Origin: Rhodobacter xanthinilyticus
GTDB lineage: Bacteria > Pseudomonadota > Alphaproteobacteria > Rhodobacterales > Rhodobacteraceae
Length of the DNA stretch: 64,000 nt
Direction of reading: 5' to 3'
Assembly: GCF_001856665.1 (NCBI RefSeq)
Contig: NZ_CP017781.1
Location: forward strand, 496,001 to 560,000
The notes under the pieces are model-generated. The model was not told where the DNA came from. It searched no databases and saw nothing but the letters and a program-made list of their open reading frames with translations. Made by a program: the position numbers and the translations under genes. Shown in pieces: positions 6,686 to 22,406 of this stretch. Within the stretch, counting starts at the first letter, position 1, and every line of letters begins with the position of its first letter.

Positions 6686-7918
6686 TCAACCTGCAAGCCC
6701 GGCGCAGGCGGCGGTGATCCGGTCCAGCGCGCTGCGCAACTCCGCCTCCGAGGTCGCGTAGGAGATCCGGAAATAGGGCGAGAGGCCAAAGGCGGCGCCG
6801 GGCACCATCGCGACATCGGCCTCCTCCAGAAGCCAGGCGCAAAATGCCCGATCCGAGTCGATCACCCGCCCCGACGGGGTCGTTTTCCCGATCACGCCTG
6901 CGCAGGAGGCGAAGGTATAAAACGCCCCCTCGGGCACGCGACAGCTGATCCCCGGGATCGCGTTCAACGCCCCCACCACCATGTCGCGCCGCTTCTGGAA
7001 ACTCGCGGCGCGCTCGGCCAGATAGTCCTGCGGCCCGGTCAAGGCGGCGAGCGCGCCCGCCTGGCTGATCGAGCTTGGGCAGGAGGTCGACTGGCTCTGC
7101 ACCACCGCCATCGCCTTGATCAGCGCCTCGGGCCCGCCGGCATAACCGATCCGCCAACCGGTCATCGCATAGGCCTTCGAGACCCCGTTCACCGTCAGGA
7201 TCCGATCCTTCAGCCGCGGTTCCAACGCCGCAGGCGTCACGAACCGGAAACCGTCGTAAACGATATGCTCATACATGTCGTCGACCATCAGCCAGATCTG
7301 CGGACGCCCGAGCAGCACCTCGAGCAGCGGCCGGTAATCCGCCTCCGCATAGGCCGCGCCCGTCGGGTTCGAGGGCGAGTTGAGCAAGACCCATCGCGTG
7401 CGCGGCGTGATCGCGGCGGCGAGATCCTCGGCCGAGAGTCGGAACCCCTGCGCGCCGTCGCAAGGCACCGCGACCGGCACGCCGCCCGCGATCTGCACGA
7501 TGTCGAAATACGAGGTCCAGCACGGCGTCGGGATGATCACCTCATCGCCCGGGTTGAGGCTCGCCATGAAGGCGTTGAACAGGATCTGCTTGGCCCCCGC
7601 CGCGACAGTGATCTCTGCGGGCCCATAAACGACCCCGTTCTCGCGCCGGAACTTCTCGGCGATCGCGGCTTTCAGCTCGGGCGTACCGTCAAGCGCGGTG
7701 TATTTCGTCTGGCCGAGCGCCATCGCGGCACTCGCGGCCTCTTTCACATGCTCGGGAGTGTCGAAATCGGGCTCGCCCGCGCCGAGGATGATCATCGGTC
7801 GCCCCGCGCGTTTGAGCGCGCCGGCGCGCGCGCCGATCTGCAAGATCTCGGAAACGCCGAGCGTGGCGATCCGATCGGCCGGGACGAACCCGGCCGTTTC
7901 ATTGAATTTTTCGGTCAT
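6686..7918 (-). CDS. class I/II PLP aminotransferase, probable 2-aminoadipate aminotransferase
   Basis: The 410-residue protein is a fold-type I aminotransferase of the aspartate aminotransferase family. It shows the NPTG motif near 185, the cofactor Asp in VDDMYEHIVYDG, the Schiff-base Lys248 in NGVSKAYAMTGWRIGY and the C-terminal substrate Arg in FRISYA. By family alone it could act on aspartate, aromatic or branched substrates. It starts 7 bp after the stop of the amaB-type dehydrogenase, whose product is 2-aminoadipate, so conversion of 2-aminoadipate to 2-oxoadipate is the best contextual guess. The ATG at 7918 is chosen because the in-frame extension upstream lies inside amaB. It is convergent with flgI. 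Confidence 0.8.
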   Translation of the reverse strand: MTEKFNETAGFVPADRIATLGVSEILQIGARAGALKRAGRPMIILGAGEPDFDTPEHVKEAASAAMALGQTKYTALDGTPELKAAIAEKFRRENGVVYGPAEITVAAGAKQILFNAFMASLNPGDEVIIPTPCWTSYFDIVQIAGGVPVAVPCDGAQGFRLSAEDLAAAITPRTRWVLLNSPSNPTGAAYAEADYRPLLEVLLGRPQIWLMVDDMYEHIVYDGFRFVTPAALEPRLKDRILTVNGVSKAYAMTGWRIGYAGGPEALIKAMAVVQSQSTSCPSSISQAGALAALTGPQDYLAERAASFQKRRDMVVGALNAIPGISCRVPEGAFYTFASCAGVIGKTTPSGRVIDSDRAFCAWLLEEADVAMVPGAAFGLSPYFRISYATSEAELRSALDRITAACAGLAG

Positions 7919-7925
7919 GCCCGCC

Positions 7926-9437
7926 TCAGTCGATATCGAAAACGACGCCCTGCGCCAGCGGCAGCTCGCGCGAGAAGTTGATCGTATTGGTCGCGCGGCG
8001 CATGTAGCCCTTCCACGCATCCGAGCCGCTCTCGCGCCCGCCGCCGGTCTCTTTCTCGCCGCCGAACGCGCCGCCGATCTCGGCGCCCGAGGTGCCGATA
8101 TTGACATTGGCGATCCCGCAATCCGAGCCGCGCGCCGACAGGAAGGTCTCCATCTCGCGCATGTCGAGCGTGAAGATCGACGAGCTCAGCCCCGCGCCGA
8201 CCGCGTTGTGGCTCTCGAGCACGGCATCGAAGTCATTGTATTTCATGACATAAAGGATCGGCGCGAAGGTCTCTTCGAGAACCGGCCCGGTTTGCTCGGG
8301 CATTTCGACCAAGGCCGGGTGCACATAATAGGCCGCGTTCGAGGCGACCGAGGCGCGCGCCCCGCCATGGACCTTGCCGCCCGCCGCCCGCGCGGCCTCG
8401 AGCGCGCTCTGCATCGCGTCGAAGGCGAGCTTGTCGATCAGCGGCCCGACGAGCGCCTGCGTCTCGAGCGGGTTGCCCACCGAAACGCTCGCATAGGCCT
8501 TGATCAGCCGCGGCACCAGCGCGTCATAGACGCTCTCATGCACGAAGAGCCGGCGCATCGTGGTGCAGCGTTGGCCCGCCGTGCCCATCGCGCCGAAGGC
8601 GACCGCGCGCAGCGCCATGTCGAGATCGGCCGAGGGGCAGACGATGCCCGCGTTGTTGCCGCCGAGCTCGAGGATCGAGCGCCCGAACCGCGCCGCGACC
8701 TTCGGCCCGACGATCCGGCCCATGCGGGTCGAGCCAGTGGCCGAGATCAGCGCGACATCATGGCTCTCGACGAGCGTGTTGCCGACATCGCCCGCGCCGA
8801 TCAGCACCTGCGAGAGATCTGCCGGCGCCGCGCCGAACCGCGCCAGCGCGCGTTCGAGGATCGCCTGGCTCGCAAGCGCGGTGAGCGGCGTCTTTTCCGA
8901 GGGTTTCCAGATCACGCTGTTGCCGCACACGAGCGCGAGCGCGGTGTTCCACGACCAGACCGCGACCGGGAAGTTGAAGGCCGAGATCACGCCGACGACG
9001 CCGAGCGGGTGCCAGGTTTCCATCATCCGGTGGCCCGGGCGCTCGGTCGCGATGGTCAGGCCGTAAAGCTGGCGCGAGAGGCCGACCGCGAAATCGCAGA
9101 TGTCGATCATCTCCTGCACCTCGCCGAGGCCCTCGGACGGGCTCTTGCCGGCCTCGATCGAGACGAGACGGCCGAGCGCGTCCTTCGCGGCGCGCAGCTC
9201 CTCGCCCAGAAGCCGCACGAGCTCGCCGCGCTTGGGCGCGGGCACCTCGCGCCAGGCCTTGAACGCCACCTTGGCGCGCGCGATCGCGGCCTCGGCGGTG
9301 GCGGGGGTGTCGGTCACCAGGGCGCCGATCTGCTCGCCGGTCACCGGGCTGAAGCTGGCCATCGGCCCGCCGGTATAGAGAGCGGCATCGACGCCGAGCT
9401 GATCGAGGAGCGTTTTGGCTTCGGTTGCAAGCGACAT
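7926..9437 (-). CDS. amaB: ALDH7-family dehydrogenase, L-piperidine-6-carboxylate / aminoadipate semialdehyde dehydrogenase
   Basis: The 503-residue protein is an NAD-dependent aldehyde dehydrogenase with the catalytic Cys near residue 290 in the motif GTAGQRCTTMRRL and the general-base Glu near 255 in ELGGNNAG. The GQRCTT-x-RR form is characteristic of the ALDH7 (antiquitin) branch, which oxidises 2-aminoadipate 6-semialdehyde in lysine and pipecolate breakdown; AmaB of Pseudomonas putida is the bacterial model. It is third in the minus-strand unit amaA-permease-amaB-aminotransferase. The intact active site and the presence of an AmaA-like gene two positions upstream make the specific role likely, although other ALDH substrates cannot be excluded. 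Confidence 0.85.
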   Translation of the reverse strand: MSLATEAKTLLDQLGVDAALYTGGPMASFSPVTGEQIGALVTDTPATAEAAIARAKVAFKAWREVPAPKRGELVRLLGEELRAAKDALGRLVSIEAGKSPSEGLGEVQEMIDICDFAVGLSRQLYGLTIATERPGHRMMETWHPLGVVGVISAFNFPVAVWSWNTALALVCGNSVIWKPSEKTPLTALASQAILERALARFGAAPADLSQVLIGAGDVGNTLVESHDVALISATGSTRMGRIVGPKVAARFGRSILELGGNNAGIVCPSADLDMALRAVAFGAMGTAGQRCTTMRRLFVHESVYDALVPRLIKAYASVSVGNPLETQALVGPLIDKLAFDAMQSALEAARAAGGKVHGGARASVASNAAYYVHPALVEMPEQTGPVLEETFAPILYVMKYNDFDAVLESHNAVGAGLSSSIFTLDMREMETFLSARGSDCGIANVNIGTSGAEIGGAFGGEKETGGGRESGSDAWKGYMRRATNTINFSRELPLAQGVVFDID

Positions 9438-9457
9438 GGGGGTCCTTCCTGTGGGTC

Positions 9458-10870
9458 TTATTCGACGAAATGGATGAGGGTGACGAGCGCCGCCGCGAGG
9501 GCGAGGCCGTAGAGGGTAAAGCCGCGGTTGATCGTGAAGGTCACCCGCGCGGGGGAGAGCCCGAGCGCGCGGCCGGTGATGATCGACATCGCCGAGATCG
9601 GCGAGGCGGAGATCGCGAGCGCCCAGGCAAAGCAGAGCGCGAGCGCGAGCGAGAGCGGGTGGGCGGCGCCGACCGGCCCCGCGCCGAAGAGCTGCGCGGC
9701 CATCACCATCACGATCGAATGGGGGATGAGCGCGGCGCCGGCGAGCGGGATCAGCACGAGGCAGCCGAGGATGATCGCGAGCGCGGGCAGCGCGCCGCTT
9801 TCGATCAGCGCGCCGATGCCGAGCGCGTTGAGCGCGAGCGAGACGCCCGCCCCGATCACCGCCGCGGCGAGGAAGATCGTCGCCTCGTTCGCCATCGTGC
9901 TCGAGGCCTCGGCGAGCGTGTCGAGCGGGTTTTGCCGGCGGGCCGGGCGGGCGGCGGGCTCGAGGATCGGCCAGAGCAGGGCGAGGAGCGGCAGCACGAG
10001 GCAGGCCGCGACGAGGAAGCTCACATCGAGCGCGCGGTGGAGCGCGAGCGTCACCGCGATCAGCCCCGCCACCCCGGCGAGGATCGCGCCGAGCGCCCGG
10101 GCCCCGCCCGCGGGCGCTGTGCTTTCCGGGTCGGGCGCGGTGGCGCCGCGGTCAAAGGCCAGCGCGCCGAGCGAGACGAGCATCGCGGCGCCGAAGCTCA
10201 CCCCGAGAAACACCACCGGATCGAGCGCCGGGATCGCCGAGGTCACGATCGCAAAGCCCACCCCGATCGGGTTCCAGACCGTCATCAGGAGCGTGCCGCG
10301 CAGCGCCGCGAGCGTGACCGGGCCCGGGTCGAGGCCGGGCTTGCCCTCCGCGCGCGCCCGCGCGGCATGGTCGGCGGCGATATCGGACATCATCCCGATC
10401 GTGCCGATGTTGAACAGAACCGAGAGGAATTGCGCGCCGAAGGTCATCGCCGCCGCGCGCATCCGGGCGGGGAAGGCGAAGAGCTGCGCCGCCGCCGCGC
10501 CGATCACCTTCGAGGCGCGCACCGGCGCGCGGATCAGCCCGAGCGTGGTCAGAAAGGCCGAAAACGCCGTGCCCTGCATCAGCGCGCGTTCCATCGCGGG
10601 CAAGGCTTCGGGCGCGGTGAGCGCCACCGTCGCCGCCACGACCAGCGCGCCGATCGCGAAGACCCGGGCGATCTTGTTCACCGCGCCGAGCCGCAAGAGC
10701 GCAAGCGCGACCGCCGCCGCCGCCGCGAGCCCGTTCAGCGCCGCGAGCTCGGGCCAGAGACGCGCGCCGATCTGCCCGGCCAGAAGCCCCGCGATCATCA
10801 CGACCGCAAGCCCGCCCGAGACCCGGCGCAGCCCCGCACCGCGCGCCGCCATCGTGACCCCGCTCTGCAT
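9458..10870 (-). CDS. polytopic membrane protein, probable transporter of unidentified family
   Basis: The 470-residue protein has roughly eleven to thirteen hydrophobic segments and almost no soluble domain. It has two broadly similar halves separated by a charged linker near 310-330 (PAARPARRQNPLDTL), which suggests an inverted-repeat carrier of the ion-transporter type. I do not recognise a named family from motifs. It begins 3 bp after the amaA stop and is followed by amaB after 20 bp, so it is made with the pipecolate enzymes. Uptake of pipecolate, lysine or a related acid, or export of an intermediate, is an inference from position only. Confidence 0.7.
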   Translation of the reverse strand: MQSGVTMAARGAGLRRVSGGLAVVMIAGLLAGQIGARLWPELAALNGLAAAAAVALALLRLGAVNKIARVFAIGALVVAATVALTAPEALPAMERALMQGTAFSAFLTTLGLIRAPVRASKVIGAAAAQLFAFPARMRAAAMTFGAQFLSVLFNIGTIGMMSDIAADHAARARAEGKPGLDPGPVTLAALRGTLLMTVWNPIGVGFAIVTSAIPALDPVVFLGVSFGAAMLVSLGALAFDRGATAPDPESTAPAGGARALGAILAGVAGLIAVTLALHRALDVSFLVAACLVLPLLALLWPILEPAARPARRQNPLDTLAEASSTMANEATIFLAAAVIGAGVSLALNALGIGALIESGALPALAIILGCLVLIPLAGAALIPHSIVMVMAAQLFGAGPVGAAHPLSLALALCFAWALAISASPISAMSIITGRALGLSPARVTFTINRGFTLYGLALAAALVTLIHFVE

Positions 10871-10873
10871 CGC

Positions 10874-12157
10874 TCAGACCCGGTCCGAGACGAAATGCTT
10901 CAGCCCCGCGCCCGCCGCGTAATAGGCGAATTTCGCCTCGCGCAGCGCCGCGGTTTCGACCTTGGTGACCGGCAAAGGCATCGCCTCGAGCGGCAGATCG
11001 CACAGGATATGCCGCGCGAGCGCCTTGCCAAAGACCGTGCCCGGCGCGATCCCGCGGCCGTTGTAGCCGCAAAACGTCAGCGCGCGCTCGCCAAAGACAT
11101 GCAGCCGCGGCAGGTTGTTCGCGGTCATCCCGATCCGGCCCCACCATTCGGTCTCGAAGCCCACGCCCGCGAGCTGCGGGAAGATCTTGTGCATCGCGCG
11201 CAGCGCCCAGGCGCGATGCGTGGCGCGATCGAGCCCGCCGAGCCGGCCGACCGAGCCGAAGACGAGCCGCCCCATCTTGTCCATCCGGAACGACGAGAGC
11301 ACATCGGGCGTATCCCAGCAGCCCTCGCCGCCCGGCAGGATCGCGGCGCGCAGCGCCTCGGGCAGGACCGGCGTCGACATGTTGAAATAGGGCAGGATCA
11401 CCTGTTCCTGAACGATCTCGGGGAAGACCTTTTCGGTATAGGCGTCCGAGGCCGGGATCAGCCATTTCGCCTTCATCGTGCCGCCCGGGGTGCGCAAGAC
11501 CCAATCGGCCCCCGCCCGCGCGATGCCGCTCACCGGCGAGCTCGCATGGATCACCGCCCCCGCCTTGATCGCCGCATGGGCGAGCCCGCGGGCATAGGCG
11601 AGCGGCTGGATCGTGCCCGCGCGATGATCGAGCAGCGCGCCCCTGTAGCGCCCGCCGCCGACGCGCCGCCGGGTCTCGGCCGCGTCGAGCAGCTCGACCG
11701 GCGCGCCGCGCGCCTGCCATTGCCGCATCCGGTCGGAGACCTCCGCCAGCCCCTTGCGCCCGACCGCCAGATGCAGCGTGCCGTTATGCACCGCCTCGCA
11801 GTCGAGACCATGGCGCTTGACGATCGAGAACACCTCGCCCGGCGCATTGCCGAGAAATTCCAGAAGCCGCGCGCCATACTCCGCGCCGAGCGCATTGGGC
11901 AGCTCCTCGGGCATCACCCACATCCCGGCATTGACCAGCCCGACATTGCGCCCCGCGCCGCCAAAGCCCGGCTCGACCGCCTCGAGGATCGTCACCGAAA
12001 CCCCCGCTTGAGCCAGATGCAGCGCCGCCGACAGCCCGGTATAGCCCGCGCCGATGATCGCGACCTCGGTCTCGGCCGCGCCGGAGAGGGCGGTGAGTGC
12101 CGGGGCAGGGGGGGCGGAGAGCTCCCAAAGGCCGTGGCTGAGAGGATCGTTAAGCAT
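10874..12157 (-). CDS. amaA: FAD-dependent L-pipecolate oxidase-like protein
   Basis: The 427-residue flavoprotein belongs to the DAO family. A dinucleotide-binding motif (EVAIIGAGYTGLSAALHLAQ) lies at about residue 30, followed by GFGGAGRNVGLVN, and near the C-terminus FCGYNGRGIAPGTVFGK, the second FAD contact. Length and layout match AmaA, the Pseudomonas putida enzyme that oxidises L-pipecolate to piperideine-6-carboxylate. Gamma-glutamylputrescine oxidases (PuuB) are close relatives and are the main alternative. The neighbouring ALDH7 gene favours the pipecolate assignment. It heads a four-gene minus-strand unit, and its upstream region contains a LysR-type palindrome shared in form with the divergent ABC operon. 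Confidence 0.8.
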   Translation of the reverse strand: MLNDPLSHGLWELSAPPAPALTALSGAAETEVAIIGAGYTGLSAALHLAQAGVSVTILEAVEPGFGGAGRNVGLVNAGMWVMPEELPNALGAEYGARLLEFLGNAPGEVFSIVKRHGLDCEAVHNGTLHLAVGRKGLAEVSDRMRQWQARGAPVELLDAAETRRRVGGGRYRGALLDHRAGTIQPLAYARGLAHAAIKAGAVIHASSPVSGIARAGADWVLRTPGGTMKAKWLIPASDAYTEKVFPEIVQEQVILPYFNMSTPVLPEALRAAILPGGEGCWDTPDVLSSFRMDKMGRLVFGSVGRLGGLDRATHRAWALRAMHKIFPQLAGVGFETEWWGRIGMTANNLPRLHVFGERALTFCGYNGRGIAPGTVFGKALARHILCDLPLEAMPLPVTKVETAALREAKFAYYAAGAGLKHFVSDRV

Positions 12158-12252
12158 CGTGAGGCTCCGGGATCAGACGTGCGGCCCATCTGCCGCCGCC
12201 CAAGGGGTGCCCGAAATCGGCGCCGAATTCCAGTTCTGTGTGCGTCACACGT

Positions 12253-12269
12253 CATTCCGATGTGGAATG
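12253..12269. promoter_or_regulatory. LysR-type operator palindrome, amaA side
   Basis: CATTCCGATGTGGAATG is a perfect inverted repeat with 6-bp arms and contains the T-N11-A core of LysR-type operators. It lies 95 bp upstream of the amaA start. A second copy with the same outer arms is at 12515-12531 on the other side of the region. The LysR gene at 15732, encoded in the divergent operon, is the obvious candidate to bind both. Confidence 0.6.
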
Positions 12270-12514
12270 TCTCGCGCGGGGCGCGGTCATTCCGAATACG
12301 ATCGGCGGGAAACGGCGTGCGACCGGGCGAAACATCGGGGGAGGCCCGGCATTTCGTTGATTTTAGAGCGTTTTTGTGGCGTTCAAGAATCAATCACCGC
12401 CAGATTGAAAGCGCTGAAACTTTAATCACTCGCAAAATCGGCAAAATATCTGCTCAAAACGTCATGCCGCAGCGCGGCGCTAACCGCCCGTTTTGCAAGG
12501 TTATCCCACAAAGT

Positions 12515-12531
12515 CATTCTCAAATGGAATG
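12515..12531. promoter_or_regulatory. LysR-type operator palindrome, ABC transporter side
   Basis: CATTCTCAAATGGAATG has the same length and the same CATTC...GAATG arms as the site at 12253-12269, and the same T-N11-A core. It ends 104 bp before the binding-protein start codon. Near-equal distance from the two divergent start codons (95 and 104 bp) argues that one regulator controls both units. Confidence 0.6.
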
Positions 12532-12635
12532 ATTTTTTGCGCATCGCTTGATTGTTCCGCCCGCGCGACCGGGGCCTTTGAAGACCAAGCCCACGGCAAG
12601 AGACCGGGGCCTGTCCAATCTTCAGGGAGATATCC

Positions 12636-13481
12636 GTGACCCATCCGCTTCCCTTCGCGCTGCGCCGTCTCGCCCTTGGCGGCCTCGTCGCCGCCGCCCT
12701 TGCCGCCCCGCTCGCCACCCCCGCCGCCGCGCAATCGCCCGAAGAGGGCTGGGCGGGCGTGCAGGCCGCGGGCAAGCTGCGCTGCGGCGCGGCCGTCTTC
12801 CCGCCCTATGTGATGCGCGACCCGGTCACCGGCGACTACAGCGGCTTCTTCGCCGATCTGTGCCGCGAATTCGGCGAAGAGGTGCTCAACGTGCCGGTCG
12901 AATTCGTCGACACCACCTGGGACAACATCGTCGCGGGCGTGCAGACCGGCAAATGGGATCTCTCGCTCGCGCTCAACCGCACGCCGACCCGCGCCCTCGC
13001 CATCGCCTTCTCGGACCCGGCGGTGCCCTATGAAATCACGCTCCTCTACAACAAGGACAACCCGAAGATCCCGGCCGACGCGAAGGGCCTTGCCGATCTC
13101 GACAAGGAAGACATCACCATCGCCGTCGTCTCCGGCACCGCGATGGACAAATCGGTCAGCCCCTTGGTGAAAAACGCCAAGGTCGTGCGCCTGCCGTCCT
13201 CGGATGAGGCGCGCCTTGCGGTGATGTCGCGCCGCGCCGATGTGCTGGCCGACCCCTCGGACACCAACCGCCTGTTCATCGCCGCCAACAAGGATTGGGC
13301 GGTCGATCTCGCGCCGCAGCCGGCAATCTCGAAACAGGGCATCGGCTTTGGCCTGAACGCCGCCTTCCCGGCCAAGGATATCGCCGCCCTCAACATCTTC
13401 ATTGAGGAGAAGGTCGCGACCGGCCATGTCGAGGCCCTCGTCGACAAGGCCGTCCAGGAGGTTCTGGCCGAGGGCCAGTAA
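12636..13481 (+). CDS. periplasmic amino-acid-binding protein of an ABC transporter
   Basis: This is a family 3 solute-binding protein of 281 residues. A Sec signal peptide runs to about residue 32 (ATPAAAQ), followed by the family opening GKLRCGAAVFPPYVMRDPVTGDYSGFFADLC. It delivers a polar amino acid to the membrane permeases encoded downstream. The GTG start at 12636 is supported by AGGGAG seven bases upstream and by the fit of the signal peptide. It heads a five-gene unit (binding protein, ATPase, two permeases, LysR) divergent from the pipecolate catabolic genes, so D-lysine, L-lysine or pipecolate are plausible ligands. Family membership is clear; the ligand is inferred. Confidence 0.9.
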   Translation: MTHPLPFALRRLALGGLVAAALAAPLATPAAAQSPEEGWAGVQAAGKLRCGAAVFPPYVMRDPVTGDYSGFFADLCREFGEEVLNVPVEFVDTTWDNIVAGVQTGKWDLSLALNRTPTRALAIAFSDPAVPYEITLLYNKDNPKIPADAKGLADLDKEDITIAVVSGTAMDKSVSPLVKNAKVVRLPSSDEARLAVMSRRADVLADPSDTNRLFIAANKDWAVDLAPQPAISKQGIGFGLNAAFPAKDIAALNIFIEEKVATGHVEALVDKAVQEVLAEGQ

Positions 13482-13538
13482 CCGCGAAACCGGCGGGCGG
13501 GGCAACCCGCCTGCCCCCCCAGCGCAAGAGCAAAGACG

Positions 13539-14300
13539 ATGGTTCAGGACAAGCTCCTCAAAATCCACAACCTGCACAAATCCTACGGCGATCTGGAGAT
13601 CTTCAAGGGGCTCAGCCTCTCGATGGATCGCGGCGACCGGCTGGTGATCATCGGCCCCTCCGGCGGGGGCAAGTCGACGCTTCTGCGCATCGTGATGGGG
13701 CTCGAGGAGATCGTCGGCGGCGATGTCTATCTCGACGGCAAGCCCTATATCTTCCGCGATGGCGGAAAGACCCGGATCGAGCGCAAGTTGCAGGCGCGCG
13801 TGGGCATGGTGTTCCAGCATTACACCCTCTTCCCGCATCTCGACATCCTGCGCAACCTGACGCTCGCGCCGATCAAGACCCGCGGCACCTCGCGCGCCGA
13901 GGCCGAGGAAAAGGCGATGGCCCTGCTGACCCGCTTCGGCCTCGCCGCCAAGGCCCGCGCCTATCCCTCGCAGCTCTCCGGCGGCCAAAAGCAGCGCGTC
14001 GCGATCGCCCGCGCGCTGATGCTCGACCCGGATCTCTTGCTCTTCGACGAGGTGACCTCGGCGCTCGACCCCGAGCTCGTGGCCGAGGTCGAGGCGGTGA
14101 TGATGGAGCTCGCCGCGGCGGGCATGCCGATGATGATCGTCACCCATGACATGCATTTCGCCCGCAATATCGCGAGCCGCGTGGTCTTTGCCGCGGGCGG
14201 CGTGGTGGTCGAGGATGGCCCGCCCGAACAGGTGCTCGACGCGCCGCAGGTCGCGCGCACGCGCGAATTCGTCGAGCGGGTCTTTGCGCGGAAGAAATGA
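13539..14300 (+). CDS. polar amino acid ABC transporter ATP-binding protein
   Basis: This is the 253-residue nucleotide-binding subunit of a GlnQ/HisP-type importer. It has the Walker A motif GPSGGGKST near residue 42, the signature LSGGQKQRVAIARAL near 148, Walker B LLLFDEVTSALDPE and the switch His in VTHDM. The conserved GMVFQHYTLFPHLDILRNL Q-loop segment is typical of the amino acid uptake subgroup. It sits between the binding protein and the first permease, whose start follows the stop by three bases. Confidence 0.95.
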   Translation: MVQDKLLKIHNLHKSYGDLEIFKGLSLSMDRGDRLVIIGPSGGGKSTLLRIVMGLEEIVGGDVYLDGKPYIFRDGGKTRIERKLQARVGMVFQHYTLFPHLDILRNLTLAPIKTRGTSRAEAEEKAMALLTRFGLAAKARAYPSQLSGGQKQRVAIARALMLDPDLLLFDEVTSALDPELVAEVEAVMMELAAAGMPMMIVTHDMHFARNIASRVVFAAGGVVVEDGPPEQVLDAPQVARTREFVERVFARKK

Positions 14301-14303
14301 GCC

Positions 14304-14972
14304 ATGAATTATGACCTGCAATTCTTCTACGTCTGGCAAAACCTCGACAAGCTCGGCCAGGGGCTCCTGATCTCGCTCGAGCTCACGGTGCTGGCCAATC
14401 TGATCGGGCTGAGCCTCGGCTTTGTCATCGCGCTGATGCTGCGGGCGCGCACGGTGGCGCTGCGGGCGCCGGCCTCGGCGCTCGTCGAGGTGTTTCGCTG
14501 CACCCCGGTGCTGATCCAGGTGGTGTGGTTTTTCTACTGCGTGCCGATCCTCTTCAACCTCTTCGTCGATCCGATGGTGATGGGGGTGCTGGCGCTCGGG
14601 CTGAACCTCGCCGCCTTCAACGCCGAGGGCTACCGCGCCGCGATCCAGTCGGTGCCGCGCGAGCAATATGACGCCTGCTCCGCGCTCGGGCTCTCGGGCT
14701 GGACGCGGGTGCGCCATGTGATCTTGCCCCATGCGCTGCGCGCCGCGCTGCCGGTGCTGATGACCAACGGCATCACCATCTTCCAGCAAAGCGCGCTGGT
14801 CGCGCTCGTGGCGATCCCGGACCTGATGTATGAGGGCAAGATGCTCGCCACCGAGACCTATCGCCCGATCGAGACCTATACCGTCGTCGCGCTGATCTAT
14901 TTCGCGATCTCCGCGCCGATCTCGCTGATCGTGCAGCGCATCGAGGCGCGGTTCGACCGCGTCCAGGCCTGA
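14304..14972 (+). CDS. polar amino acid ABC transporter permease (first)
   Basis: The 222-residue protein is a HisM/HisQ-type inner-membrane permease with about five membrane segments. The EAA loop that docks the ATPase is visible near residue 130 (DACSALGLSGWTRVRHVILPHALR). The short N-terminal segment TVLANLIGLSLGFVIALMLRA and the motif VEVFRCTPVLIQVVWFFY are characteristic of the family. It works as a heterodimer with the next gene product. Confidence 0.94.
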   Translation: MNYDLQFFYVWQNLDKLGQGLLISLELTVLANLIGLSLGFVIALMLRARTVALRAPASALVEVFRCTPVLIQVVWFFYCVPILFNLFVDPMVMGVLALGLNLAAFNAEGYRAAIQSVPREQYDACSALGLSGWTRVRHVILPHALRAALPVLMTNGITIFQQSALVALVAIPDLMYEGKMLATETYRPIETYTVVALIYFAISAPISLIVQRIEARFDRVQA

Positions 14973-14984
14973 GGGAGCCCCGCC

Positions 14985-15653
14985 ATGATGCATTTCGACC
15001 CGACCCTGCCGCTGAAATATTGGGATGCGCTCCTGATCGGGCTGTGGATGAGCCTGCGGCTGACGCTGATCTGTCTGGTGCTGGGCGTCGCGCTGGGCTT
15101 CCTGACCTCGCAGGCGCGCCGCGCGCGGTTCGCGCCGCTGCGTGCCCTCGCGGTGCTCTATGTCGAGCTCTTCCGCGGCACGCCGGTGCTGATCCAGCTC
15201 TTCTGGATCTTCTATTGCCTGCCGCTTCTCTTGGGGTTTGAGCCCGGCAACTTCGCCTCCGCCGTCATCGCGCTCTCGCTCTACGCCGGGGCGATCACCT
15301 CCGAGACCTTCCGCGCCAGCCTGAAATCGATCCCGCGCGAGCAATATGACACCTGCCGCGCGCTCGGCATCACCGGGCTGAGCCTGGCGCTCTGGGTGGT
15401 GATGCCGCAGGCGCTCCTGCGCGCGATCCCGACGCTTTTGTCGAACGCGGTCGCGCTCTTCAAGGAAAGCGCGCTGATCTCGGCGGTGGGCATGGCCGAT
15501 CTGATGTTCATCGGCTCCTCGATCTCGAACCGCACCGGCCGGCCCGTCGAGATGCTGACCGCGGTGGCGATCATCTATTTCGTGGTGGCCTTCCCGCTGA
15601 CCCGGGTGGTGGGGCGCGTCGAGGCGCGGATCCTGCGCCGGCTGGCGGTCTGA
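14985..15653 (+). CDS. polar amino acid ABC transporter permease (second)
   Basis: This is the second 222-residue permease of the same importer and a clear paralogue of the preceding one, with VELFRGTPVLIQLFWIFY and the EAA loop DTCRALGITGLSLALWVVMPQALLR. The pairing of two unequal permeases with one ATPase is the histidine/lysine-arginine-ornithine transporter layout. It starts 12 bp after the first permease, behind the ribosome site GAGGGAG. Confidence 0.94.
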   Translation: MMHFDPTLPLKYWDALLIGLWMSLRLTLICLVLGVALGFLTSQARRARFAPLRALAVLYVELFRGTPVLIQLFWIFYCLPLLLGFEPGNFASAVIALSLYAGAITSETFRASLKSIPREQYDTCRALGITGLSLALWVVMPQALLRAIPTLLSNAVALFKESALISAVGMADLMFIGSSISNRTGRPVEMLTAVAIIYFVVAFPLTRVVGRVEARILRRLAV

Positions 15654-15731
15654 GCGGGCGGGGGGCAGAAAATGCTTGTCTCGCCGCGGGGGCCGCGCGA
15701 CATCAGGCAGGTCTCTCTCGGAGCCCTGCTG

Positions 15732-16640
15732 ATGAAAACCCCGCGCCGTTTCCTGCCCTCGCTCTCGCTTTTGCAAGCCTTCGAGGCGGCGGCGCGGCTG
15801 CAATCGATCACCGGCGCCGCGGCCGAGCTCTCGCTCACCCAAAGCGCCGTCTCGCGCCAGATCCGCGCGCTCGAGGAACAGCTCGGCACCGTGCTCTTTC
15901 ACCGCGAGAAACAGACGATCCGGCTGACCCATGGCGGGGCGACCTATGCCCGCGAGGTGCGCGAGGCGCTGCAAAAGATCTCGCAGGCCTCGATGAACCT
16001 GCGCGCCAACCCACATGGCGGCACGCTCTCGCTCGCGATCTTGCCGACCTTCGGCACGCGTTGGCTCGCGCCGCGGCTGCCGGCGTTTCTGGCCGCCAAT
16101 CCGGGGATCACGATCAACCTCGTCACCCGGCTGACGCAGTTCGATTTCTCCGCCGAGACGGTCGATGCCGCGATCCATTTCGGGCGCACCGATTGGCCCG
16201 GCGCGGCCTTCACCTATCTGATGGGCGAAGATGTCGTGCCCGCCTGTTCGCCGGCGATGGCGGCGCGGTTCGGCTTTGGCGCGCCCGCCGATCTGCGCGC
16301 CGCGCCGCTCCTGCATCTGACCTCGCGCCCCGATGCCTGGGAGAAATATTTCGCCCGCAACGGGGTCGATGCCGAGAATGTCCACGGCATGCTCTTTGAC
16401 CAATTCGCCACCGCCGCGCAGGCCGCCGCGGCCGGGCTCGGCGTCGCGCTCCTGCCGACCTTTCTGATCGAGGATGAGATCGCCGCGGGGCGGCTCGTGC
16501 GCGCGTTTGATGCGCCGATGCGCTCGGATGAGGCCTATTACCTCTGCTGGCCGCGCGATCAGGGCGATTACGAGCCGCTGCGCCAGTTCGCCGATTGGCT
16601 GGTGGGGGAGGCCCGCGCCTTCGAGGCGGCGCGGGCCTGA
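15732..16640 (+). CDS. LysR-type regulator, GcvA subgroup
   Basis: The 302-residue protein has an N-terminal winged helix-turn-helix (LLQAFEAAARLQSITGAAAE then LSLTQSAVSRQIRALEEQLG) and a LysR co-inducer domain. Wording such as PSLSLLQAFEAAAR and LFHREKQTIRLT places it in the GcvA-like branch. I prefer the ATG at 15732, which has GGAG nine bases upstream and gives the usual family N-terminus, over the ATG at 15672. Located at the end of the ABC operon and facing the OCD gene, it is the likely regulator acting at the two palindromes in 12253-12531. It ends three bases before the convergent OCD stop. Confidence 0.9.
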   Translation: MKTPRRFLPSLSLLQAFEAAARLQSITGAAAELSLTQSAVSRQIRALEEQLGTVLFHREKQTIRLTHGGATYAREVREALQKISQASMNLRANPHGGTLSLAILPTFGTRWLAPRLPAFLAANPGITINLVTRLTQFDFSAETVDAAIHFGRTDWPGAAFTYLMGEDVVPACSPAMAARFGFGAPADLRAAPLLHLTSRPDAWEKYFARNGVDAENVHGMLFDQFATAAQAAAAGLGVALLPTFLIEDEIAAGRLVRAFDAPMRSDEAYYLCWPRDQGDYEPLRQFADWLVGEARAFEAARA

Positions 16641-16643
16641 GGC

Positions 16644-17582
16644 TCAGGCCGTGAGGCTCTCATAGGCCAGAACGGCCGCCGCCAGATCCTCGATCGCAGA
16701 GCCCACGCCCTTGAAGAGCGTGATCTCCTCGGCCGAGGCGCGCGGGCGCAGATCGTCCCGGCAAAGCCCCGCGAGCGTGCCCTCGATATCGGCCTTCGAG
16801 ATCGCCCCCGAGGCCAGCGGGATCGCGATATCGCCGCTCTCGACCATCGCGTGATCGGTGTCGAGGAAGATCCGCGCCCGCGCCAGAACCTCGTCATCGG
16901 CCTCGCGCATCTCGGGCGTGAAGGAGCCGATCAGGTCGATATGCTGGCCCGGTTGCAGCCATTCCCCCTCGATCAGCGGCGCGCGCGAGAGCGTCGCGCA
17001 GGAGATGATCTCGGCGCGCTTCACCGCGGCCTCGAGATCGGGCACCGCCCGCGCATTGAGCCCGCCGCGGCGCAGCTCGACCGCGAGCGCCTCGGCCGAA
17101 GCCGCGGTGCGCGACCAGATCTCGATCTCCTCGATGGCGAAGGCCGCGCGGTAGGCCCAGGCGAGGTTCGCCCCCACGCGCCCCGCGCCCACGATCAGCA
17201 TCTTGCGGCTCTCGGGCCGCGCGAGGCGCTTGGCGGCGAGCGCCGAGGCGGCCGCCGTGCGCCGCGCGGTCAGCTCGCCCCCGTCAAGGAGCAGCTTGTG
17301 CACCCCCGTCAGCCGGTCGAAGAGGATATAGCTCGAGGCGATCGCCGGCAGCCCGCGCCCGGCGTTGCCCGGATGCACGTTGACGATCTTGACGCCGCCC
17401 CAACCCGCCTGCTGCCAGGCCGGCATCAGGAGCAGCACATCATCCGCCGCGCCCGGGGTCTTCATGAAATGATGGTGGCGCAGCGGCACCTCGGCGCCCG
17501 CGCGGAACCCCGCATCGAGCGCCGCGATCAACGCGCCAAAGGGCAGCGCGGCCCGGGTGTCTTCAAGGCTCAGAACTCGCAT
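16644..17582 (-). CDS. ornithine cyclodeaminase/mu-crystallin family protein, probable cyclic ketimine (piperideine-2-carboxylate) reductase
   Basis: The 312-residue protein has the family motif DGGELTARRTAAASALAAK near residue 100, a Rossmann loop LIVGAGRVGANLAWAY and the segment HIDLIGSFTPEMREAD. Members include ornithine and lysine cyclodeaminases, mu-crystallin and LhpI, a bacterial reductase that converts pyrroline-2-carboxylate to proline and piperideine-2-carboxylate to L-pipecolate. Next to a DadA-type dehydrogenase and opposite a pipecolate oxidase, the reductase role making L-pipecolate fits best. A lysine cyclodeaminase that makes L-pipecolate directly from L-lysine is the alternative. 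The ATG follows GGAGAGAGAG, a ribosome site seen again at the next gene. Confidence 0.82.
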   Translation of the reverse strand: MRVLSLEDTRAALPFGALIAALDAGFRAGAEVPLRHHHFMKTPGAADDVLLLMPAWQQAGWGGVKIVNVHPGNAGRGLPAIASSYILFDRLTGVHKLLLDGGELTARRTAAASALAAKRLARPESRKMLIVGAGRVGANLAWAYRAAFAIEEIEIWSRTAASAEALAVELRRGGLNARAVPDLEAAVKRAEIISCATLSRAPLIEGEWLQPGQHIDLIGSFTPEMREADDEVLARARIFLDTDHAMVESGDIAIPLASGAISKADIEGTLAGLCRDDLRPRASAEEITLFKGVGSAIEDLAAAVLAYESLTA

Positions 17583-17593
17583 CTCTCTCTCCT

Positions 17594-18850
17594 TCAGATC
17601 GCGTCAAGCCAGCGCGCGCGCGAGGAAATATCGCGCAGCGCGGGCGGTTCACCGGCCATCGCCTGCGCCAGAATCTCGCCCGCGCCGAGGCTCATCGTCC
17701 AGCCGAGCTGGCCGTGCCCGGCGTTGATCCAGAGGTTCGAATGGGTGCGCACGCGGCCAAGATAGGGCGGGCCCGCCGGCGTCGTGGGGCGCAGGCCGGT
17801 CCAGAATTCCGGGGTCTCGAGATCGACCGCGGCGCCAAAGCGGCGGCGGACATAGGCGTCAAGGAGCGCGGTGCGCGCGGGCGGCAGGCTGCGGTCGCGA
17901 CCGGCGAATTCGGCGATCGCGGTGACGCGCAGCCGGTCGCCGTAATTGGCAACGGCGAGAAGCTCGGTCTCGTCGACGAAGGGCAGCCGCGGCACGCCGG
18001 CGGGGTCGGTGATCCGCCAGGTGCCGGAATAGCCCTTCACCGGGTAGATCTGCGGCACGAAGCCCAAGGGGCGGGTGAGGTCGGCCGTCTCGACCCCGGT
18101 GGCGAGCACCACCGCCGAGCAGGCGATCGGCCCGCGATCGGTCTCGACCGCGGTGATCCGTCCGAGGCTTTGGGCAAAGCCCGTCACCCGCGTCTCGAAG
18201 CGCATGGCCACGCCCGCGCCGCCGAGCCAGGCCGCCGTGCGCCGGGTGAAGAGCGCGCAATCGCCCACCGAGTCGATCCGGCTCAAGAGCCCGCCCGCGA
18301 GCCGCTCGCCCATCGCCGCAAGGCTCGGCTCGCGCGCGACCAACTCCTCGCGGCTCAGCGCGGTGATCTCGCCGCCCTCGGGCAGTTTCGCGCGGTAGCG
18401 GGCGAATTGCGCTGCATCCTGGAAGAGATAGAGCGCGCCCTCGTGCCAGGTGTCGACCGGCAGGCCCATCTCGGCCTCGGCGGCGGCGAGCCGGTCGCGG
18501 CTGAACCGGCTCAGCCGCTGCTCGGCCGAGGTGTTGCGCGCGTTTGCGGCGGGGGTGCAATGGCGGAGGAACTCCACCCCCCAGCGCCAGAGCGCCGGGT
18601 CGAAGGGCCGCGTGACCTTGACCGAGGGCTCGCGCCCGACCAGCGCGCGCAGGAGCGCCGGGATCGCCGCGGGCTCGGCCCAGGCCTTCGCATGGCCCAC
18701 CGCCAGCATCCCCGCATTGCCGCGCGAACACATCTCCGCCGCGCCCGGCAGCGCGTCCACCACCACCACCTCGGCGCCTCGCAGGCGCAGCGCGCGGGCG
18801 GTCATCACCCCCACCACGCCCGCGCCAATCACCACCACCGGATCGCTCAT
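17594..18850 (-). CDS. DadA-type FAD-dependent D-amino acid dehydrogenase
   Basis: The 418-residue flavoprotein starts with the dinucleotide-binding motif VVVIGAGVVGVMTARALRLRG and ends with the DadA hallmark NLWINAGHGQLGWTMSLGAGE preceded by GLRPTTPAGPPYLG. Such enzymes oxidise D-amino acids to 2-oxo acids and pass electrons to the respiratory chain at the inner membrane. Given the neighbouring ketimine reductase, D-lysine is the likely substrate, since its oxo acid cyclises to piperideine-2-carboxylate; D-pipecolate is another option. It lies between the XRE regulator and the OCD gene with short gaps, so the three form one unit. Confidence 0.85.
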   Translation of the reverse strand: MSDPVVVIGAGVVGVMTARALRLRGAEVVVVDALPGAAEMCSRGNAGMLAVGHAKAWAEPAAIPALLRALVGREPSVKVTRPFDPALWRWGVEFLRHCTPAANARNTSAEQRLSRFSRDRLAAAEAEMGLPVDTWHEGALYLFQDAAQFARYRAKLPEGGEITALSREELVAREPSLAAMGERLAGGLLSRIDSVGDCALFTRRTAAWLGGAGVAMRFETRVTGFAQSLGRITAVETDRGPIACSAVVLATGVETADLTRPLGFVPQIYPVKGYSGTWRITDPAGVPRLPFVDETELLAVANYGDRLRVTAIAEFAGRDRSLPPARTALLDAYVRRRFGAAVDLETPEFWTGLRPTTPAGPPYLGRVRTHSNLWINAGHGQLGWTMSLGAGEILAQAMAGEPPALRDISSRARWLDAI

Positions 18851-18860
18851 CTCTCTCTCC

Positions 18861-19475
18861 TTACCGGGTCTCGCGCGCGTCGCAGACCCACAAAACCACC
18901 GCCGGCTCGGGGCTCAGCGACACCAGCGCATGGCCCATCGCGCTGTCGAAGGCGAAGCTGTCGCCCGGGCCGAGCTCGACGGGCGCGTAATGTTCGGTCC
19001 AGACCTGCACGCGCCCCGATTGCACGATCACCTGTTCCTGCCCCGGATGGGCCTGCAGCGCCTCGAAGTCCTCGCGCGCGCGGGCGAGGATCTCGGCGCG
19101 GAAGACGAGATAGGGCTTCGCCGCCACCTCTTCGCCCAAGAGCTCGAGCCGGTAATGCGGCGTCTCGACGACCCGCCCCTCACCCGCCCGCGTCAGCGCC
19201 CGCCAGCCCGCGAACCCCTGCCGCGCCTTGAAGGACAAGAGCTCGCGCAGCCCGACGCCAAAGCCCTCGGTGATCTTCGAGACGACATCGAAAGTGGGCG
19301 AAAGCTGGCCGTTCTCGATGCGCGACAGCGTCGCGGCCGAAACCCCGCATTGCGCCGCCGCCGCCGCCAGCGTGCGCCCGCGCGCCAGCCGCAGCGCCTT
19401 GAGATTGGCGCCGATATCGACCGGCCCGGTCTCGGCGGGGGTCTCGTTCAGCGCACGGATTTCGGTTTTCCACAT
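18861..19475 (-). CDS. XRE-family regulator with C-terminal cupin domain
   Basis: The 204-residue protein has an N-terminal helix-turn-helix of the Cro/CI type (TLAAAAAQCGVSAATLSRIENG) and a small cupin sensor domain (residues about 130-200, with HPGQEQVIVQSGRVQVW and GPGDSFAFDSAMGHAL). PuuR and related amine/amino acid repressors share this plan. It is first in the unit XRE-dadA-OCD and just downstream of the glutamine synthetase-like gene, with a palindromic operator in its own upstream region. Autoregulation and control of the amine or lysine genes follow by analogy. The ATG at 19475 places the helix-turn-helix at the normal distance from the N-terminus. Confidence 0.88.
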   Translation of the reverse strand: MWKTEIRALNETPAETGPVDIGANLKALRLARGRTLAAAAAQCGVSAATLSRIENGQLSPTFDVVSKITEGFGVGLRELLSFKARQGFAGWRALTRAGEGRVVETPHYRLELLGEEVAAKPYLVFRAEILARAREDFEALQAHPGQEQVIVQSGRVQVWTEHYAPVELGPGDSFAFDSAMGHALVSLSPEPAVVLWVCDARETR

Positions 19476-19501: not shown

Positions 19502-19545
19502 GATACGCAACAAATTTGCGTATCCGCAACAAATATCCGCAAACG
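19502..19545. promoter_or_regulatory. probable operator for the XRE-cupin regulator
   Basis: GATACGCAA, five bases, TTGCGTATC is a perfect 9-bp inverted repeat at 19502-19524. The unit CGCAACAAAT at 19506-19515 recurs directly at 19525-19534, and CCGCAAACGAAA follows. The cluster lies about 27 to 70 bp upstream of the XRE start, where a repressor would cover its own promoter. Confidence 0.55.
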
Positions 19546-19602: not shown

Positions 19603-20985
19603 TCAGACGGTGTGCAGGTAGAGCTCGTAATCCACATCCGCGATCCAGCGCGCGACGCGCTGATATTCGGCGGCCTTGATCGCGGTGAAGGTGCGGTGCA
19701 TGTCCTCGCCGAGCGCATCCTTGAGGAACGCGGACGCCGTCGCCGCCGCGATCGCCTCGCGCCAATCGCCCGGGATCGGCAGGTCGTCGCCGCCCTCATA
19801 GCCGTTGCCGGTGGTCTCCGGGCCCGGGTCGATGCGGTTCTTCAGCCCGTGGCGGATGCCGGCAAGGATCGTCGCGGCGACCAGATAGGGGTTCGCATCG
19901 ACCCCCGAGGGACGATGCTCGACGCGCCGCGCCTTGATGTCGCCCGCCGGGATCCGCAGCGCCACCGAGCGGTTGTTCACCCCCCAGCTCGGGCTGACCG
20001 GGGCGTAGCTCTGATTGGCGAACCGGCGCCAGGAATTCGCATGCGGCGCGAAGACGAGCATCGATTCGCCCATCGTCTCGCGCAGCCCGCCGATCGCGTG
20101 GCGGATCGTGTCGGTCCATTCGCCCTCGATGGCCTCGGCGAAGATATTGCGCCCCTCGGCATCGCAAAGCGAGACATGGAAATGCATCCCGGAGCCTGCG
20201 TATTTCTCGATCGGCTTGGCCATGAAACAGGCCACCACGCCATGCCGGCGCGCCTGCATCCGCACGATCCGCTTGAGCCGCACGAGATCGTCGGCGGCCT
20301 CCATCACATCGGTGCGGTAATGCAGCGTCAGCTCATATTGGCCGGGCGCATATTCCGAAATCACCGTCTCGGCCTTGATCCCCATCGCCTCCGCCGCGCG
20401 GTAGATATCGGAGAAGAGCGGCTGCATCCCGTGCAGATGGTCGACCGAATAGACCTCGGTCCAGTCCGAGCGCCGCCCGTCGAGCACCGCCGCCGCCGGG
20501 CGCACGCCCTGCGCGCGATCGGGGTCGAGGAGGAAGAATTCGAGCTCGAAAGCGCCCGCCGGGTAAAGCCCCTCGGCCGCCATCGCCTTGACCTGCCGCG
20601 CCAAAGCATGACGCGGGTCCGAGGTCATCTCGGCGCCGTCGAGGTGATACATCGACATCAGAAGCTCGCCGCGCGGCGGGGTGGTGCCATGCAGCGGCTT
20701 GAGCGAGCCCGGGATCGGCCAGGCGCGCAGATCGCCATCGCCCTGATCCCAGATCAGCCCGGTTTCATGGACATCCTCGCCGACGATATCGAGCCCGAGG
20801 ATCGAGATCGGCAGGTGGCGGCCGGATTTGTAGAGGCCCAGAAGCTCGTGGCGGCGGATGATCTTGCCGCGGCCGATGCCGTTGGCATCATGCAGCACGA
20901 TGTCGAAGGCCTCGATCTCGGGATGGGCTTCGAGGAAGAGTTCGGCCTCGCGGACGGAGGAGCCGGAGGGGGAAAGGTCGGTCAT
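19603..20985 (-). CDS. glutamine synthetase family protein, PuuA-like gamma-glutamyl ligase
   Basis: The 460-residue protein has the glutamine synthetase catalytic core: ELEFF for metal binding, SEYAPGQYELTLHY, the substrate loop GSGMHFHVSL and the Arg-rich segment NNRSVALRIPAGDIKARRVEHRPSG. The RRVEHRPSGVDANPYL form is that of PuuA-type ligases, which join glutamate to an amine rather than ammonia. Together with an XRE-cupin regulator and a class III aminotransferase, it resembles an amine-degradation module. The amine is not identifiable from sequence. Its start lies one base from the preceding gene's stop, so the two are coupled. Confidence 0.82.
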   Translation of the reverse strand: MTDLSPSGSSVREAELFLEAHPEIEAFDIVLHDANGIGRGKIIRRHELLGLYKSGRHLPISILGLDIVGEDVHETGLIWDQGDGDLRAWPIPGSLKPLHGTTPPRGELLMSMYHLDGAEMTSDPRHALARQVKAMAAEGLYPAGAFELEFFLLDPDRAQGVRPAAAVLDGRRSDWTEVYSVDHLHGMQPLFSDIYRAAEAMGIKAETVISEYAPGQYELTLHYRTDVMEAADDLVRLKRIVRMQARRHGVVACFMAKPIEKYAGSGMHFHVSLCDAEGRNIFAEAIEGEWTDTIRHAIGGLRETMGESMLVFAPHANSWRRFANQSYAPVSPSWGVNNRSVALRIPAGDIKARRVEHRPSGVDANPYLVAATILAGIRHGLKNRIDPGPETTGNGYEGGDDLPIPGDWREAIAAATASAFLKDALGEDMHRTFTAIKAAEYQRVARWIADVDYELYLHTV

Positions 20986-20986
20986 G

Positions 20987-22357: not shown

Positions 22358-22406
22358 GATCCCCTCCGCTTGGCTGGCGCGAGCCAATCACGGCGCGCGC
22401 GTGGCG

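Follow-up and report, generated by a model that had tools for sequence, protein, structure and literature searches.

A locus of Rhodobacter xanthinilyticus joining an L-pipecolate operon to a DadA-OCD gene pair, probably for pipecolate and perhaps for D-lysine degradation

Could D-lysine and L-pipecolate be degraded by the products of one bacterial locus? The question is raised by positions 6686-19475 of a stretch of 64,000 nucleotides (the window) of Rhodobacter xanthinilyticus (contig NZ_CP017781.1, positions 496,001 to 560,000), whose genome has 3.78 Mb on 4 contigs. A complete island for this purpose had been proposed here from the sequence (the original prediction). The region holds 12 genes in three strand blocks, all open reading frames (Table 1), and joins two modules: the operon amaA-permease-amaB-aminotransferase, and a block of an Xre-cupin regulator gene, dadA and a gene of the ornithine cyclodeaminase (OCD) superfamily, with an ABC importer and lysR between them. 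The lower pathway, from L-pipecolate to 2-oxoadipate, is well supported; it would most likely be fed by D-lysine through DadA and OCD, with the LysR protein activating amaA and the importer, and a probability of about 0.6 is given to this reading as a whole. In this genome the steps from D-lysine to 2-oxoadipate can be linked into an unbroken chain, with good support for its lower half only. The entry of D-lysine is plausible and D-proline is a live alternative; substrates, importer cargo, regulator targets and the order of steps are predictions from the sequence.

Enzymes, transport and control of the L-pipecolate route

In the proposed route AmaA would oxidize L-pipecolate to piperideine-6-carboxylate, which AmaB would convert into L-2-aminoadipate, and the aminotransferase would then produce 2-oxoadipate. 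AmaB passed the equivalog model of piperideine-6-carboxylate dehydrogenase (NF050084) with 810.9 bits against a cut-off of 730, as the proposed ALDH7-type AmaB would lead one to expect. In a tree of 47 rows, with two entries for Escherichia coli PuuB and without L001-L003 and identical proteins, the AmaA clade comprised 39 rows (Shimodaira-Hasegawa-like approximate likelihood ratio test, SH-aLRT, 100). The window protein was inside this clade, together with the proteins of Pseudomonas sp. 2FG (736.5 bits) and Chromohalobacter (700.5 bits) which pass the AmaA model NF050086 (an exception model, cut-off 600). Outside were both PuuB rows and six others (L131, L152, L168-L171). L131 (genome C1:1445000-1464999), an AmaA-like paralogue of 39%, has an Xre-cupin-like gene and an aldehyde dehydrogenase (ALDH) gene in reach and resembles a puu cluster.

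The aminotransferase gene lies directly 3' of amaB here, in the sister species G046 (87%) and on plasmid pTPRO1 of Salipiger profundus (68%). The order on pTPRO1 is permease / lysR / hglS-amaB-aminotransferase-OCD-superfamily gene, and both HglS (722.8 bits, cut-off 550) and AmaB (797.6 bits, cut-off 730) passed their models. Homologues were also found with lysR and amaA in Gemmobacter fulvus (72%) and within an amaA-amaB cluster of G076 (49%). The substrate of HglS is 2-oxoadipate according to the accessible part of PMC7286885, so the aminotransferase linked to it was placed at 2-aminoadipate; the same role had been proposed originally, and it is supported by the linkage in other genomes to AmaB, HglS, AmaA and LysR.

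HglS (PF07063) had no match in the window genome; G039 and the Chromohalobacter genome do have PF07063 matches. Because no HglS gene was found, 2-oxoadipate would most likely be converted to glutaryl-CoA and then be used by a glutaryl-CoA-dehydrogenase-like enzyme encoded elsewhere. Next to hglS-amaB in G039 lies a gene whose product, in view of this position, is putatively glutaryl-CoA-dehydrogenase-like, and the window genome encodes a counterpart with 82% identity; for this counterpart no NCBIfam model was over its cut-off. A dehydrogenase E1-like gene, which adjoins AmaB in G076, had no match in the window genome or G046 at E 1e-40, in a search without positive control. The island is "complete" at most to 2-oxoadipate.

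The permease is the least expected item of the locus. All the genes named in the original prediction were recovered as open frames, with family matches for the aminotransferase, ALDH, AmaA-like oxidase, SBP_3, LysR, OCD, DadA-type and Xre-cupin proteins, but this membrane protein of 470 amino acids inside the operon had been overlooked. It has 9 hydrophobic stretches and no match among the Pfam and NCBIfam models, and is predicted from its neighbourhood to be a transporter serving the amaA-amaB pathway, of a family outside both collections. Its homologue in G046 (82%) precedes amaB and the aminotransferase gene, and that in Salipiger (50%) lies beside lysR-hglS-amaB-aminotransferase. Homologues occur on 7 plasmid records (one partial), all labelled hypothetical. 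The fold predicted from one sequence had a mean predicted local distance difference test score (pLDDT) of 47.7. On Thioclava plasmids homologues are found in other surroundings.

The LysR protein, whose relatives lie divergent beside AmaA in G039 (73%), Gemmobacter (68%) and Microvirga (65%), is predicted to activate the amaA operon and the importer via two palindromes. The divergent gap of 478 bp between amaA and the binding-protein gene contains two copies of YATTCN7GAATR, CATTCCGATGTGGAATG and CATTCTCAAATGGAATG, the 2 matches of the window against 0.07 expected. The whole genome has 6 sites, 2 of them in this gap, and 0 for the reversed control. Two or more sites in the gap would have a probability of 2.4e-7 by uniform placement, an optimistic value because the pattern was derived by visual inspection of these very sites and of related ones. 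Spacing and T-N11-A form fit LysR boxes.

Similar sites were revealed in related genomes. G046 has 9 (reversed control 0), 2 of them upstream of the importer, and Gemmobacter has one on either side of lysR, towards the aminotransferase gene and towards amaA. Of the 9 sites in G039, one is in the lysR/amaA gap and another, on a different contig, is 83 bp before hglS and ahead of amaB; single sites there are weaker since the reversed control gave 6. The exact match before hglS-amaB in G039 is the only site independent of motif discovery. Among 17 regions checked, six had an exact site (amaA/importer of the window, the G046 importer, both regions of G039 and both of Gemmobacter), the Salipiger region had a site with one mismatch, and ten had at least 2 mismatches (Microvirga, Cereibacter, Pseudomonas, Chromohalobacter, G076, G012, G094, two Xre promoters and G046 permease-amaB-aminotransferase).

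The DadA-OCD pair and its possible substrates

DadA would convert a D-amino acid into a cyclic ketimine, and OCD would reduce the ketimine with NAD(P)H to an L-imino acid. The likeliest use of this module here would be the conversion of D-lysine through piperideine-2-carboxylate (Pip2C) to L-pipecolate, which would feed the amaA operon, and D-proline to L-proline may be its second or alternative use. OCD passed NF004793, the model of bifunctional pyrroline-2-carboxylate (Pyr2C)/Pip2C reductases of PRK06141 type, with 397.9 bits (cut-off 322), and its Phe221 aligns to Asp228 of Pseudomonas ornithine cyclodeaminase (placed via the 1u7h alignment), the catalytic residue of that enzyme. Since the reductase model was passed and the cyclodeaminase Asp is lost, OCD should reduce a cyclic ketimine and not deaminate lysine. 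The proposed role of OCD as a reductase is borne out in this respect, but the label "LhpI-type" was wrong in the strict sense, with 128.8 bits on the LhpI model NF045512, below the cut-off of 400. NF004793 does not separate Pip2C from Pyr2C reductases: it was passed by all six OCD relatives tested, from DadA, amaA/amaB, hydroxyproline and molybdopterin-oxidoreductase contexts. The OCD-superfamily gene after amaB and the aminotransferase gene on Salipiger pTPRO1 (L180:13866-14876) belongs to another subfamily and seems, by eye and not by alignment, to have the Asp that the window protein lacks.

An OCD-superfamily tree of 94 rows placed the window protein in a clade of five (SH-aLRT 98), all of them beside DadA. 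The sister group has three rows (86 for the joint support) and contains two proteins from Phaeobacter plasmids, one of them encoded beside a molybdopterin oxidoreductase. The survey of neighbourhoods covered 92 further loci (OCD of at least 40%), 80 from a scan keeping 80 of 186 and 12 chosen by hand. DadA of at least 50% was adjacent in 4 and AmaA lay no more than 8 kb away in 4, with no locus having both; the DadA of L063 (22%), which would bring the DadA tally to 5, and the AmaB of L070, L106 and L122 (28-32%), which would bring the AmaB tally to 7, were not counted. The OCDs near amaA/amaB belong to three Chromohalobacter loci, where they form one clade and lie at most about 250 bp 3' of amaA, and to one Pseudomonas locus, where OCD is 6 kb from AmaA, behind transporter genes, and on a branch of the tree without resolution. 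Two of these tested (L094 and L108) both pass NF004793. Their places in the tree suggest two or more separate recruitments of OCD to amaA/amaB. In Microvirga (L146) an OCD-superfamily gene of 37%, below the 40% limit of the survey, lies about 4.5 kb from AmaA.

Two further observations concern OCD neighbourhoods. On a Phaeobacter inhibens plasmid (L149:5555-9942) a molybdopterin oxidoreductase gene adjoins an OCD about 56% identical to that of the window. In 13 of the 80 scan loci, mostly rhizobial, less than 900 bp separate the OCD gene from the end of the contig, as might be expected next to repeats (L035, L036, L040, L042, L044, L047, L048, L055, L057, L065, L076, L089 and L091).

Several results weigh against a single chain from D-lysine to 2-oxoadipate under LysR control. 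AmaA reached 421.9 bits on NF050086, under the cut-off; the Phaeobacter porticola homologue, with 420.7 bits, is also under it, so the proposed AmaA-like oxidase stands by its tree position and by a score like that of this homologue, and not by the model itself. In the clade of seven rows nearest to the window AmaA (the others from Cereibacter, Microvirga, Gemmobacter, G039, G067 and G037), AmaB is close by for the window protein alone, in the stretches read. Among 149 genomes of the family, AmaA (at least 300 bits) occurred in 39 and AmaB (over cut-off) in 38; the 16 genomes with both amount to a weak association (odds ratio 2.8, p 0.017). The best model of the aminotransferase was the aspartate transaminase PRK06107 (NF004769; 537 bits, under the cut-off of 617). 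That of DadA was PRK00711 (NF001933; 346.7 bits, under the cut-off of 383), and DadA is said to work like PRK00711 proteins and is not classed as one. The LysR palindrome was found neither upstream of Xre-dadA-OCD (best 4 mismatches) nor upstream of permease-amaB-aminotransferase in G046 (best 2 mismatches). In G046 the modules are unlinked, with importer-lysR-OCD-DadA-Xre on one contig and permease-amaB-aminotransferase on another, and no AmaA match above 38% was found there (E 1e-60). Celeribacter HF31 has Xre, DadA and OCD at 58, 68 and 73% identity, but AmaB was not found there at E 1e-150 and AmaA matches did not exceed 37%. Finally, one Phaeobacter OCD of the sister group (57% identical), which passes NF004793, lies in an aconitase X / cis-3-hydroxy-L-proline operon.

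Because the pair occurs without AmaB or a close AmaA in Celeribacter, it must serve something else there at least, and D-proline is the obvious candidate. In the available part of PMC6034422, the title of a cited paper on the P. putida reductase names D-lysine and D-proline. The modules might then be independent neighbours in R. xanthinilyticus too, with amaA-permease-amaB-aminotransferase degrading L-pipecolate (or lysine) and dadA-OCD only inverting D-proline via Pyr2C. The separation seen in Celeribacter and G046, the hydroxyproline operon in the sister group and the bifunctional nature of the NF004793 family would all suit this arrangement. So would separate control: dadA-OCD has its own Xre regulator and a palindrome, TTGCGTATCCGCAA, which is the sole match of the pattern TTGCGNNNNCGCAA in the window; the Xre gene of G046 is preceded by a palindrome of this form, and a similar one is present in Celeribacter. 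However, the pair adjoins the pipecolate operon here, OCDs lie close to amaA/amaB in Chromohalobacter and Pseudomonas, and of the four further genomes with the dadA-OCD pair, three have AmaB over its cut-off. In two of these, Ruegeria halocynthiae and Leisingera SS27, both AmaA and AmaB are encoded, outside the stretches around the pair. Independence of the modules is judged the less likely reading, and a joint chain from D-lysine is preferred. As for the D-lysine chain of the original prediction, its lower steps are upheld, and the use of D-lysine by DadA and OCD is not established in view of Celeribacter HF31, G046 and the 57% OCD.

Direct formation of L-pipecolate from L-lysine by OCD acting as a lysine cyclodeaminase is very improbable. 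It would agree with the PF02423 superfamily, with the place beside pipecolate genes and with the Chromohalobacter OCD and amaA/amaB locus, where no DadA match was found in the 20.9 kb read; yet Phe occupies the Asp228 position here and in the amaA-linked OCDs of L094 and L108, and the reductase model is passed. With the catalytic Asp lost, this role was rejected. The weakest alternative, that AmaA and AmaB are PuuB/PuuC-type enzymes of putrescine degradation, has in its favour the superfamilies in common and the glutamine-synthetase family gene which comes next (19603-20985), but it was rejected on the tree and the model scores, since E. coli PuuB is outside the AmaA clade with 212.7 bits on NF050086 against 421.9 for the window AmaA, the window AmaB is over the NF050084 cut-off, and the best model of E. 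coli PuuC is the PuuC one. Best matches of AmaA and AmaB to PuuB/PuuC, by which the original prediction would have been refuted, were not obtained.

Layout of the locus and neighbouring genes

Genes are closely packed in each block. Gaps are 3, 20 and 7 bp in the minus-strand block amaA-permease-amaB-aminotransferase, 57, 3, 12 and 72 bp in the plus-strand block from the binding-protein gene to lysR, and 10 and 11 bp in the minus-strand block Xre-cupin-dadA-OCD; the ends of lysR and OCD are 3 bp apart. The solved relatives of the SBP_3 binding protein were mixed, and the importer was left without a substrate assignment.

Table 1. Features of the locus, with positions in the window
Feature	Position	Strand	Basis
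Class I/II aminotransferase, predicted L-2-aminoadipate transaminase	6686..7918	-	PF00155; best NCBIfam PRK06107
AmaB, piperideine-6-carboxylate (2-aminoadipate semialdehyde) dehydrogenase	7926..9437	-	NF050084 over cut-off
470-amino-acid membrane protein, predicted pathway transporter	9458..10870	-	no Pfam/NCBIfam match; neighbourhood
AmaA-type L-pipecolate oxidase	10874..12157	-	best model NF050086 (under cut-off); tree
Palindrome CATTCCGATGTGGAATG, predicted LysR box	12253..12269		95 bp before amaA start
Palindrome CATTCTCAAATGGAATG, predicted LysR box	12515..12531		104 bp before binding-protein start
Amino-acid ABC importer periplasmic binding protein (SBP_3)	12636..13481	+	PF00497
ABC importer ATPase	13539..14300	+	open frame, read from sequence; 93% in G046
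ABC importer permease 1	14304..14972	+	open frame, read from sequence; 90% in G046
ABC importer permease 2	14985..15653	+	open frame, read from sequence; 92% in G046
LysR regulator (GcvA-like), predicted activator of amaA operon and importer	15726..16640	+	PF00126/PF03466
OCD-superfamily ketimine reductase (Pyr2C/Pip2C reductase)	16644..17582	-	PF02423; NF004793
DadA-type D-amino acid dehydrogenase	17594..18850	-	PF01266; PRK00711 best model, under cut-off
Xre-cupin regulator, predicted control of dadA-OCD operon	18861..19475	-	PF01381 and PF07883 (scanned 18861-19472)
Palindrome TTGCGTATCCGCAA, predicted autoregulatory operator upstream of Xre gene	19516..19529		perfect palindrome

The left neighbour of the locus is, from its sequence, putatively FlgI. 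Beyond the Xre-cupin gene, the glutamine-synthetase family gene was below every NCBIfam cut-off, and 1 bp after it follows a class III transaminase gene (PRK07046, 689 bits, cut-off 425), both together covering 19603-22387. Neither was found beside the Xre-dadA-OCD block in G046.

Relation to known pathways

Enzymes of the Pseudomonas putida pathway bear the names DpkA, AmaA and AmaB. For the D-lysine/L-pipecolate (2-aminoadipate) pathway of this species, PP3596, PP3591, PP5257 and PP5258 are given in the accessible part of PMC6034422. The predicted chain has the same chemical steps, and AmaA and AmaB are alike by family model and tree. In R. xanthinilyticus, however, the Pip2C reductase is of the OCD superfamily, whereas that of P. 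putida is of the malate/L-lactate dehydrogenase type; all genes are in one locus here, and no PF07063 match exists in the genome. Judged by its family, OCD would stand in for DpkA at the reduction of Pip2C. Proteins of both the OCD and the MLD2 (DpkA-type) groups are Pyr2C reductases in the available text of PMC4113996, with Atu4676 as an example of the OCD superfamily. Superfamily and ketimine reduction are shared with the window protein, but the context in that text is 3-hydroxyproline and here it is pipecolate genes.

In the related organism P. inhibens, an L-pipecolate branch of lysine breakdown was shown by isotope work, and a plasmid-cured mutant without the putative pipecolate oxidase gene accumulates L-pipecolate on L-lysine, by which this oxidase is implicated (PMC5653290, in the parts available). 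The oxidase gene is there on a 262-kb plasmid, and the pipecolate-making enzyme is not named in those parts of the paper; identity of this gene with the P. porticola homologue scored above was not confirmed. There is a likeness also with the Chromohalobacter loci hglS-aminotransferase / lysR-amaB-transporter-amaA-OCD (L094, L095 and L097), where OCD adjoins amaA and amaB as here and the L094 protein passes NF004793; they differ in that hglS is present, the transporter is another one, OCD is on another branch of the tree and the stretch gave no match to dadA.

No published description of the present gene arrangement or of an OCD-type reductase within an amaA/amaB locus was found among the matches listed in the open-licence literature. 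The locus appears to combine known enzymes in a new way, as a variant of a known pathway and not a new kind of system. A wider picture, in which Rhodobacteraceae have a LysR-controlled lysine/pipecolate regulon, with OCD replacing DpkA and recruited separately two or three times (in the present genome, in Chromohalobacter and perhaps in Pseudomonas), and with a transporter for lysine, 2-aminoadipate or pipecolate of a family absent from Pfam and NCBIfam, is tentative and rated slightly below even odds.

The genes probably degrade L-pipecolate, and perhaps D-lysine, much as in P. putida, except that one step would fall to a reductase of an unrelated type. For the pipecolate route seen in P. inhibens, the locus offers a gene set together with a predicted regulator and operator. 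It also points to a transporter family without classification in Pfam or NCBIfam which can be tested directly. If the D-lysine reading is true, one step of D-lysine use would be filled by unrelated reductases.

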